Shown here piece after piece: positions 25,339-39,410 of a DNA stretch of 64,000 nt. Source of the DNA: Coralliovum pocilloporae (GTDB lineage Bacteria; Pseudomonadota; Alphaproteobacteria; Rhizobiales; Cohaesibacteraceae); contig NZ_CP132542.1 of the NCBI RefSeq assembly GCF_030845175.1, forward strand, positions 1,306,001 to 1,370,000. Direction: 5' to 3'. The position numbers and the translations under genes are program-made. Positions within the stretch are counted from its first letter, which is position 1. Each line of letters starts with the position of its first letter. Under the pieces are notes generated by a model. It was not told where the DNA came from and made no database searches. It worked only from the letters and a program-made list of their open reading frames with translations.

Positions 25339-26304
25339 ATGATTTCCCCTGAAATTTCCCATGAAATCACTCCTAAGATCGCGCCTGAAGCCATTCGCCA
25401 GACCTACAGTCTGATACAGCCCCATATCCGGCAGACACCGGTCATCAACATGGATGGGGCTGAATTCGGCCTCACCAATCCAGTCTCGCTCAAGCTTGAG
25501 CTCTTTCAGCATTCCGGCTCCTTCAAGGCACGGGGTGCCTTTACAAACCTGCTGACCCGCTCATTTCCCGAGGCAGGGGTCGCTGCCGCATCGGGCGGCA
25601 ATCATGGTGCTGCAGTCGCCTTCGCCGCACGCAAGCTCAATGTGCCAGCCAATATCTTTGTGCCATCTATTTCAAGCCCCGCAAAAATCGAGCTGATCAG
25701 ACAGGCCGGAGCCAATGTTCATGTTGAGGGCGACAGATATGCAGACGCTCTGGCGTTTTGCGAAGCATTTCAGGCCCAAACCGGCGCTGACGGCATCCAT
25801 GCCTATGATGCACCTGAAACACTTCTGGGGCAGGCAACCACCGGCCTTGAATGGCAAAACCAGACCGACACTCTCGACACTGTGCTGGTGGCTGTTGGCG
25901 GCGGCGGCCTGATTGGAGGGCTTGCGAACTGGTTTCAGGGGCGGGTGAATGTAATCGGTGTCGAGCCGGAAGGCGCATCTGCGCTGCATCAGGCTCTCGA
26001 TGCTGGCGCTCCAACAGATGTGGACGTCAATTCCCTTGCGGCAGACTCCCTTGGGGCCAGACGGATCGGACAGCTCGGGTTCGATGCCATGAAGGCCTAT
26101 GGCTCCGGCACGGTGCTGGTGTCCGATAACGCCATTCGGCAGGCGCAGACACGACTATGGCAAACCATGCGCATTGCTGCGGAGCCCGGTGGCGCAGCAG
26201 CCCTCGCCGCACTGTTGAGTGGCGCATATACTCCGGCACCCCAGGAGAGACTGGGAATCCTTGTCTGTGGTGGAAACCTGGATCCCGCCACGCTGACTGG
26301 GTAA
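25339..26304 (+). CDS. PLP-dependent threonine/serine dehydratase family protein
   Basis: A 321-residue fold-type II PLP enzyme. The PLP lysine is in the SGSFKARGAFTNLL motif, the substrate loop is AASGGNHGAAVAFAA, and the phosphate-binding glycine loop is VAVGGGGLIGGLA. No C-terminal ACT domain is present, so it is a short catabolic-type dehydratase or racemase rather than biosynthetic IlvA. AAGGA lies ten bases upstream. It is the fourth gene of the rightward cluster with the pyridoxal kinase. Confidence 0.88.
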   Translation: MISPEISHEITPKIAPEAIRQTYSLIQPHIRQTPVINMDGAEFGLTNPVSLKLELFQHSGSFKARGAFTNLLTRSFPEAGVAAASGGNHGAAVAFAARKLNVPANIFVPSISSPAKIELIRQAGANVHVEGDRYADALAFCEAFQAQTGADGIHAYDAPETLLGQATTGLEWQNQTDTLDTVLVAVGGGGLIGGLANWFQGRVNVIGVEPEGASALHQALDAGAPTDVDVNSLAADSLGARRIGQLGFDAMKAYGSGTVLVSDNAIRQAQTRLWQTMRIAAEPGGAAALAALLSGAYTPAPQERLGILVCGGNLDPATLTG

Positions 26305-27239: not shown

Positions 27240-28274
27240 TTAGGCCGCAGCCTGCTTTGGTGAGATCAGGCCTTTGTTGACCAGAAGCTCTGCAATCTGA
27301 ACCGCATTCAGAGCAGCACCCTTGCGCAGGTTATCGGAAACAACCCAGATATTGAGACCGAAATCAACTGTCGGATCCTCACGGATACGGCTGATATAGG
27401 TGGCATCTTCACCAGCACATTCATGCGGGGTGACATAGCCACCATCTTCGCGCTTGTCGACCACCAGACAGCCAGGAGCCTCACGCAGGATCTCACGCGC
27501 TTCATCGGCAGACAGCTCTTCATGGAATTCGAGGTTGATCGATTCCGCATGGCCGATAAACACGGGAACGCGCACTGCTGTTGCCGTGACCTTGATCGAC
27601 TTGTCGAGCATCTTCTTGGTTTCGGCGACCATCTTCCACTCTTCCTTGGTGGAACCGTCATCCATAAACACATCGATATGCGGGATGCAGTTGAAGGCAA
27701 TCCGCTTGGTGAATTTCTGAGCTTCAATCGGGTCGGAAACAAAGACGGCGCGGCTCTGGTTGAAAAGCTCATCCATACCTTCTTTGCCGGCACCGGATAC
27801 GGACTGGTAGGTCGAGACGACAACACGCTTGATTTTGGCCCGCTCATGCAGAGGCTTCAGCGCCACAAGCATCTGGGCCGTTGAACAGTTCGGGTTGGCA
27901 ATGATGTTCTTTTTGCCAAACGCGTCAACGGCGTCTGCGTTCACTTCCGGAACGATCAGCGGCACATCCGGATCGTAACGGAAGGCTGAGGAGTTATCGA
28001 TAACAACGCAGCCCTGCGCGCCGATTTTCGGAGACCAGTCCTTGGAGATTGACCCACCAGCAGACATCAGAGCGATATCCGTGTCGGAGAAGTCATAGGT
28101 ATCCAGCGCCTTCACCTTCAGGGTCGTGTCTCCGTAGGAAACTTCCGTACCCTGACTGCGACGGGAGGCGAGCGCCACCACTTCATCTGCCGGAAAGCCC
28201 CGCTCCTGCAGGATGTCCAGCATTTCCCGGCCCACATTCCCCGTGGCGCCGATAACTGCAACTTTGTAACCCAT
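27240..28274 (-). CDS. asd: Aspartate-semialdehyde dehydrogenase
   Basis: Reduces aspartyl phosphate to aspartate semialdehyde, the branch point to Lys, Thr, Met and Ile. The 344-residue protein has the NADP-binding MGYKVAVIGATGNVGREML, the catalytic Cys in IANPNCSTAQMLVAL, and the QSVSGAGKEGMDEL segment. The start at 28274 has GGAG ten bases upstream. Its long leader encodes a Thr/Lys/Ile-rich peptide and two alternative hairpins, so it is probably controlled by aspartate-family amino-acid supply. A strong terminator follows. Confidence 0.97.
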   Translation of the reverse strand: MGYKVAVIGATGNVGREMLDILQERGFPADEVVALASRRSQGTEVSYGDTTLKVKALDTYDFSDTDIALMSAGGSISKDWSPKIGAQGCVVIDNSSAFRYDPDVPLIVPEVNADAVDAFGKKNIIANPNCSTAQMLVALKPLHERAKIKRVVVSTYQSVSGAGKEGMDELFNQSRAVFVSDPIEAQKFTKRIAFNCIPHIDVFMDDGSTKEEWKMVAETKKMLDKSIKVTATAVRVPVFIGHAESINLEFHEELSADEAREILREAPGCLVVDKREDGGYVTPHECAGEDATYISRIREDPTVDFGLNIWVVSDNLRKGAALNAVQIAELLVNKGLISPKQAAA

Positions 28275-28289
28275 GGATTCCTAACTCCG

Positions 28290-28363
28290 ATGCTCTCCCA
28301 TCAATTCCGCGACCCGCGCCGCGTCTCACTCTCCGCCTGGTCCCGGGAGAGCATGTGGGAGAC
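28290..28363 (-). promoter_or_regulatory. Competing hairpins in the asd leader (candidate translational attenuator)
   Basis: Three segments follow the leader peptide on the minus strand. Segment 2 (28345-28363) can pair with segment 3 through GTCTC/GAGAC plus CTCTCC/GGAGAG (28323-28334). Alternatively it can pair with segment 4 through the perfect 10-base ATGCTCTCCC/GGGAGAGCAT (28345-28354 with 28290-28299). The two are mutually exclusive. Segment 4 ends one base before the asd Shine-Dalgarno GGAG (28285-28288). No T-run follows either stem, so control of translation fits better than transcription termination. Confidence 0.6.
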
Positions 28364-28373
28364 AAGCGAGGAG

Positions 28374-28493
28374 TCAGACCGTGGTGGTCTTGGTGGTTTT
28401 GATGGTGGTCGTCTTGGTGATCAGGGCACAGGCCATCGTGGCAGCAAAAGCCGCAGCACGTTTAGACCGAATGTGAGGCACAAAGCCGCTCAT
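28374..28493 (-). CDS. Thr/Lys/Ile-rich leader peptide of asd
   Basis: A 39-residue open frame (ATG at 28493, TGA at 28374-28376) that ends 99 bases before asd. Residues 25-39 read ITKTTTIKTTKTTTV: nine Thr, three Lys, two Ile and one Val. These are amino acids derived from aspartate semialdehyde, apart from the Val. The composition parallels ThrL of enterobacteria but adds Lys, matching the branch-point role of Asd. The N-terminal part is ordinary (MSGFVPHIRSKR, then Ala-rich). A weak AGGG lies about nine bases upstream, and a TTGACA-16-TAGAAC promoter sits 29 bases before the start. It would act in cis by ribosome stalling. Confidence 0.75.
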   Translation of the reverse strand: MSGFVPHIRSKRAAAFAATMACALITKTTTIKTTKTTTV

Positions 28494-28521
28494 AGGATTA
28501 CCCTGTTAAAAACCGACGCCT

Positions 28522-28549
28522 GTTCTAAACGCTTTTCCGGCCCTGTCAA
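28522..28549 (-). promoter_or_regulatory. Predicted promoter of the asd leader transcript
   Basis: On the minus strand TTGACA (28544-28549), a 16-base spacer and TAGAAC (28522-28527). The expected start near 28515 gives a leader RNA of about 240 bases, long enough for a peptide-controlled switch. Confidence 0.6.
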
Positions 28550-28598: not shown

Positions 28599-29024
28599 TC
28601 AGTGGTCTGATGGCGAGGGCGGTCCACCATTTGACTCGGCATTGCCGCGTGCGGACCCTGCAGCATTGGGGTTTGAATTGGCAGCCTGCCCCAGAATATA
28701 ACCCGCAATTGCACTGATCAAAGCCACCAGCCCGCGATCCACATCCTTGATCATCGCAAGAACAGCGATGGTCGGCAAAAGCATGGCAATTGTCAAAAGA
28801 CGGAGATTATTGTCGGCCAGGCTGACATTGTGCGTCGTCATGAACTTGAAAAAGCCCTGAATAACAAGAACACTCAGCAGCAACAGTACAAGAACGATGA
28901 GAAAAACGATAATCGTACCCTGAGTGGGGCCTTGCAGGATCAAGGACTGGAAGACCCCATCGGCCTGCGAAACAGCATCGCCCGAATTGAGAGCCGGTTC
29001 CGTTTTTACATCATTTTCCGCCAT
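28599..29024 (-). CDS. Membrane protein of unknown function
   Basis: A 141-residue protein. A polar N-terminus of about 38 residues precedes a strong membrane segment (about 39-60, TIIVFLIVLVLLLLSVLVIQ). Two more hydrophobic stretches lie around 78-92 and 100-115, and a Gly/Ser/Asn/Pro-rich polar tail ends it. The ATG at 29024 is preferred because GGGGGG lies four bases upstream; a TTG at 29036 is also in frame. It sits alone between leuB and asd and I do not recognise a family. Confidence 0.7.
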   Translation of the reverse strand: MAENDVKTEPALNSGDAVSQADGVFQSLILQGPTQGTIIVFLIVLVLLLLSVLVIQGFFKFMTTHNVSLADNNLRLLTIAMLLPTIAVLAMIKDVDRGLVALISAIAGYILGQAANSNPNAAGSARGNAESNGGPPSPSDH

Positions 29025-29122
29025 CATTCCCCCCAATGATTGTACTCTATCTTACTGCAATCATTAAAGAGAGGCGGCAGACCGGAGTCAATTTCTATCG
29101 ACTCCGGCCGTCTTTTCGATTT

Positions 29123-39169: not shown

Positions 39170-39410
39170 GAATCCATCTCTTTACTTGCCGCACTCCCGG
39201 AGCAAACGACAATCCATACCAAAACGACACCCGCGGGCGCACAGCGCTGGCGGATGGTGACCTCCGGGATCTCTTTATACCTTGCGGGTCCCGGTCGGCG
39301 GCTCAATTGTCATCATCTCACAGGAGATTGGCGGTTTTTATGCGGAACAGCACAAAAGGTCAAGACCTTCCGTATCCAATGCCACTCTGATACGCGAAAC
39401 AGACGCCGGC

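Follow-up and report, generated by a model that had tools for sequence, protein, structure and literature searches.

The locus analyzed here raises the question of whether a short reading frame ending just upstream of asd acts as a leader peptide through which the supply of particular amino acids controls this gene. We analyzed a stretch of 64 000 nucleotides from Coralliovum pocilloporae, hereafter the window, the relevant features of which are collected in Table 1. The downstream gene is asd, with its product matching PF02774 (2.3e-53) and PF01118 (4.3e-34). The preliminary description had placed a 39-codon frame 99 bases 5΄ of asd and had counted Thr, Lys or Ile at 14 of its last 15 residues, and both statements were borne out: the frame runs from an ATG at 28493 to a TGA ending at 28374 on the minus strand, encodes the 39 amino acids MSGFVPHIRSKRAAAFAATMACALITKTTTIKTTKTTTV with the C-terminal end ...ITKTTTIKTTKTTTV, and is separated by 99 nt from the asd initiation codon (ATG at 28274, minus strand). 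Its codons are repetitive and C/A-rich. In 1080 dinucleotide-shuffled versions of asd upstream regions, the best frame had nine Thr, Lys, Ile or Met residues among its last 15 once and ten never, compared with 14 in the window leader, and the codon pattern T-T-K-T-T-T occurs a single time in the whole 3.9-Mb genome, namely in the leader ORF. The peptide matched no known protein family above the cut-off, and the Rfam search returned no match at the leader, where the Thr_leader covariance model did not reach its gathering score. No leaders of this kind were seen 5΄ of hom and the aspartokinase gene of the same genome.

Table 1. Features of the asd leader region in the window, from the promoter-like element to the gene
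Feature	Position	Strand	Basis and remarks
Promoter-like TTGACA-N16-TAGAAC	28522..28549	minus	Sequence; similar element in most family-mates
Leader ORF	28374..28493	minus	39 codons; many relatives have a counterpart 5΄ of asd
Control-codon run, last 15 codons	28377..28421	minus	9 Thr, 3 Lys, 2 Ile, 1 Val; Thr/Lys composition conserved; two of three clades under purifying selection
Arm 1, ACTCCTCGCTTG	28363..28374	minus	Begins at last base of stop codon; would lie under terminating ribosome; predicted partner arm 3 or asd ribosome-binding site
Arm 2, ATGCTCTCCCG	28344..28354	minus	Predicted partner arm 3 or arm 4
Arm 3, CAGGCGGAGAGTG	28327..28339	minus	Predicted partner arm 1 or arm 2
Small hairpin CGCGGC-GCGG-GTCGCG	28308..28323	minus	Between arms 3 and 4
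Arm 4, TGGGAGAGCAT	28290..28300	minus	Directly 5΄ of asd ribosome-binding site; 11 bases complementary to arm 2
asd ribosome-binding region	28279..28288	minus	GGAG 28288-28285, AGGA 28282-28279; paired in default fold, AGGA open in 1:3 fold
asd, aspartate-semialdehyde dehydrogenase, 344 aa	27240..28274	minus	Pfam domains

The promoter TTGACA-16-TAGAAC and the RNA leader of about 240 bases proposed in the preliminary description also found support, as the promoter-like element is present and most family-mates have the related pattern TTGAC(A/T)-N16/17-(C/T)A(A/G)AA at a similar distance. From this element, the RNA would be expected to start near 28515, giving a leader of ~240 nt. A strict promoter scan did not list the element, because its –10 hexamer matches at 4/6 positions. 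A short translatable frame accordingly lies between a promoter-like element and a structural gene, as in ribosome-mediated attenuators, with translation known for the Sinorhizobium counterpart only. Near this region, the interval between leuB and the leader holds a membrane-protein-like frame of 145 codons (28599-29036, minus strand) with no Pfam family above the cut-off, and a frame close to asd (25339-26304, plus strand), judged by eye, resembles threonine/serine dehydratase. The sole Rfam match in the window is to the ffh sRNA family (39220-39271, minus strand, 62 bits).

To determine how widely the leader occurs, asd upstream regions were gathered from named genomes, family-mates, relatives in the order and the rest of the class, and a leader was scored as present when at least six of its last 15 residues were Thr or Lys, with a few borderline cases settled by eye. 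One region, L178, had wrong coordinates and was left out. In this tally of sampled families, a Thr/Lys-ending leader was found 5΄ of asd in 26 of 48 families of the window's order, with most Rhizobium-type genera among them, and in a further 5 of ~57 families of the same class outside the order (L166, L169, L174/L195, L201 and L216). Families outside the order that lack the leader often have asd directly after leuB. In Rhizobium, Sinorhizobium, Mesorhizobium, Brucella-type genomes, Roseibium and Pseudovibrio, a Thr/Lys frame was present at nearly all loci and ended ~100-125 nt before asd, with runs such as SKTTAKTTTKTV, TKTMAKTTTTKTV, TTLKTTTKTTA and TTTTTTTKV. Some spacings depart from this range: the stop-to-asd distance is only 66-79 nt in the compact leaders L022, L039, L073, L075 and L091, and in the four of these that were examined (L022, L039, L073 and L091) the bases immediately following the stop codon pair directly with the asd ribosome-binding site. 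In L018 and L029, an extra repeat-like insert between arm 4 and asd extends the stop-to-asd distance to 165 and 125 nt, respectively.

One member of this group has been reported. Sinorhizobium meliloti SEP5 was found to be translated by Ribo-seq and Western blotting, was suggested to be possibly a leader peptide and was called conserved only in Sinorhizobium (PMC10117765). SEP5 matches the Sinorhizobium frame of L011 (..SKTTAKTTTKTV), with exactly six Thr and three Lys. That report offers no structure, mechanism or relatives (PMC10117765), whereas the present analysis finds the leader in many families. The view in the preliminary description that an asd leader with Thr, Lys and Ile codons was undescribed in alphaproteobacteria must consequently be narrowed, since SEP5 had already been proposed as a leader peptide (PMC10117765); beyond SEP5, the literature search found no asd leader of this kind.

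We computed amino-acid compositions for 56 diverse leaders with <80% similarity. In the last 15 residues, Thr accounted for 43.3% and Lys for 17.2%, both inflated by the choice of these leaders on Thr and Lys, and Ile and Met for 4.2% and 1.4%, compared with 7.1% Thr, 2.9% Lys and 3.9% Ile in the preceding 20 residues. Lys was present in all 56 representatives, and the leaders draw on all four codons for Thr and both for Lys. On these values, Ile and Met were rejected as conserved control codons. Judged from the sequences compared, the conserved signal of the leader is Thr plus Lys, and because neither Ile nor Met is enriched, the leader would sense these two amino acids and not all products of the branch point. 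The earlier idea that one peptide reads several end products of the branch point thus survives for Thr and Lys and is given up for Ile, which had been named as a sensed amino acid and lies at background across the 56 leaders.

Among single-base codon differences in the last nine codons, 81% were synonymous in Mesorhizobium-type leaders and 73% in family-mates, against 28-30% expected, where the observed figures count sequence pairs and not independent events; in Rhizobiaceae, the control region varies too little for this codon test. The order and number of Thr and Lys differ widely between families, with composition alone kept, and the C-terminal KTTTKTV is nearly fixed in Rhizobiaceae leaders. 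A run of codons for products of the pathway is conserved as amino acids, as in attenuators. The alignment that the preliminary description had put forward as a check gave the expected picture among relatives, with a variable N-terminus, a conserved Thr/Lys run and turnover of synonymous codons. In L011-type Rhizobiaceae leaders, the codon preceding a conserved AKTTTKTV alternates among ACG, AAG and ATG (Thr, Lys and Met), all of which specify aspartate-family products.

We then considered the RNA between the leader stop codon and asd. Leaders of the window's order carry two pyrimidine arms (1 and 2) and two purine arms (3 and 4) after the stop codon, and no intrinsic terminator (GC-rich hairpin plus U-tract) was found on the minus strand of the window. 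In the default fold of the window RNA (–50.3 kcal/mol), the stop codon and arm 1 are paired with the ribosome-binding site, with open probabilities of 0.00 for GGAG and 0.30 for AGGA, and in the 1:3 fold (–47.1 kcal/mol) AGGA is open at 0.98. A ribosome on the stop codon likewise gave 0.98 for AGGA, compared with 0.30 without a ribosome. In truncated RNA, P(3:1) was 0.74 and P(3:2) was 0 with the ribosome upstream; with the ribosome on the stop codon, they were 0.02 and 0.87, respectively.

Similar behavior was observed across the order. Arm 2 has two possible partners, arm 3 and arm 4, and these sequences change together across families, for example in L138 (CGCTCTTTCCC with GGGGAAGGGCG or GGAAAGGGCG); covariation within single clades was slight, with little variation there. 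When 51 loci were combined, including six from outside the order, the z-score was 11.0 for the local helix, and the sharing of one arm had a z-score of 8.0. In truncated RNAs, arm 3 toggled in 27 of 45 order leaders, pairing with arm 1 when the ribosome was upstream and with arm 2 when it was on the stop codon, compared with 11.7% in shuffles (maximum of 20 replicates, 22.7%); the remaining 18 of 45 showed no toggle. The computed folds therefore contain mutually exclusive helices that depend on ribosome position, as in attenuators. Without a ribosome, the mean openness of the binding site was 0.59 with helix 1:3 and 0.45 with helix 2:3 (0.51 and 0.49 in shuffles), and helix 1:3 opened the site more than helix 2:3 at 33 of 43 loci (Wilcoxon p 2e-5; shuffles, 53%). 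Pairing between arms 2 and 4 was locus-specific across loci (p 0.0015). Arm 1 was also evaluated as a locus-specific anti-binding-site sequence and rejected (p 0.23). In an equilibrium folding scan free of kinetic assumptions, stalling gave no opening of the asd binding site, and average accessibility of the site peaked when arm 1 was removed. In some members of the order, a hairpin followed by 4-5 T lies between arms 3 and 4, and this T run is absent in most clades.

Outside the order, three leaders (L195, L174 and L201) are followed by a GC-rich hairpin and five or six T, and L216 by a weaker one. In each case, the 5΄ arm of the hairpin can alternatively pair just after the stop codon, as in L195 (GAACCTCCG with CCGGGGTTC). 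When the RNA was truncated before the 3΄ arm and the ribosome placed upstream, this upstream pairing had probabilities of 0.88, 0.81 and 0.75-0.78 in L195, L174 and L201, and once the edge of the ribosome lay 12 nt beyond the stop codon the same pairing in the outgroup terminators fell to 0.21, 0.53 and 0.38. In these models, the outgroup layout is the classic one, in which a stalled ribosome would lead to an antiterminator and a terminating ribosome to the terminator.

Taken together, these results make it probable that asd is controlled by ribosome-mediated attenuation, with the leader sensing how much charged tRNA-Thr and tRNA-Lys is available, and translation of the leader very probably informs the cell whether to make more Asd. 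The role of the leader as a sensor is well supported by sequence comparison and the switch between helices is supported by computation; from the models we infer the readout, that is, the direction and level of asd control. When Thr or Lys is short, the ribosome would stall within the Thr/Lys run upstream of arm 1, so that arms 1 and 3 could pair, the asd ribosome-binding site would open and Asd would be made. When both amino acids are plentiful, the ribosome would reach the stop codon and cover arm 1, and arms 2 and 3 would form a hairpin; once the ribosome has left, the stop codon and arm 1 would pair with the ribosome-binding site and close it. The folding supports such control of asd translation, in the expected direction, only on the condition that the order of folding counts, because the equilibrium scan was negative, a ribosome on the stop codon also opens the site and arm 1 is not locus-specific. 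In several lineages outside the order, the intrinsic terminator after the leader would serve as output instead. As these lineages have both leader and terminator, a common sensor appears to be coupled to outputs that differ between lineages.

The same observations can be read in other ways. A chance frame of low complexity without function would suit the repetitive, C/A-rich codons, but it is contradicted by the distribution, composition, synonymous turnover and shuffle tests, and its probability is close to negligible. Activity of the peptide itself, either as a ligand-binding arrest peptide or in trans like peTrpL, would accord with the nearly fixed C-terminal KTTTKTV of Rhizobiaceae and with the accumulation of SPA-tagged SEP5 as a soluble protein (PMC10117765); however, a peptide of which only the composition is kept, with Thr/Lys order and number varying between families, makes this explanation very improbable.

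Two further readings retain the leader as a control element. Translational coupling would have the opposite sign: a ribosome translating the leader as far as its stop codon would uncover the asd binding site, so that asd would be expressed when Thr and Lys are in supply. The opening of AGGA by a ribosome on the stop codon (0.98 versus 0.30) and the rise in average accessibility upon removal of arm 1 agree with coupling, but such feedback has the wrong sign for a biosynthetic gene, the outgroup terminators fit the usual sign and coupling has no need for Thr/Lys codons, and we therefore judge it quite unlikely. Alternatively, the output in the window's order could be transcriptional, with transcription stopped before asd by Rho or by a weak hairpin like that of Mesorhizobium (CCCGC..GCGGGTTTTCTCC). 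The use of terminators by the outgroups and the hairpins with 4-5 T between arms 3 and 4 in some order members point in this direction, whereas the minus strand of the window has no U-tract terminator and most clades lack the T run; we regard a transcriptional output as unlikely.

Attenuation by the leader, the reading that we favor, has relatives among known systems. The enterobacterial thr attenuator (thrL; Rfam Thr_leader) contains Thr/Ile codons, controls thrABC and ends in a terminator. Like the asd leader, it has a stretch of control codons 5΄ of an aspartate-family gene, followed by competing helices, whereas the window leader has Thr and Lys codons, controls asd and lacks a terminator. 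The alphaproteobacterial ilvB/ilvIH leaders and S. meliloti trpL are ribosome-read leader peptides from the same bacterial class, with other amino acids and genes. In other bacteria, the asd RNA motif of lactic acid bacteria (Rfam) is located 5΄ of asd and the L-box lysine riboswitch provides lysine control of aspartate-pathway genes, but the former has no leader peptide, the latter binds its ligand directly without one, and neither gave an Rfam match at the window leader. The comparative study generally cited in this context (Vitreschak et al. 2004) reportedly does not list asd, and beyond the remark on SEP5 we know of no proteobacterial leader peptide for which Lys has been described as a control codon.

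The gene asd stands at a branch point that supplies lysine, threonine and methionine as well as the diaminopimelate of the cell wall, and as far as the literature search showed, its regulation is undescribed in rhizobia, agrobacteria, brucellae and their marine relatives. A single peptide with control codons for the end products of two branches would be an unusual combined sensor. Whether one such attenuator, reading Thr and Lys at asd, extends across the class, with a terminator as output in some lineages and sequestration of the ribosome-binding site in the Rhizobium order, seems to us an evenly balanced proposition. The apparent swap of outputs between lineages would make the evolution of an attenuator directly testable.
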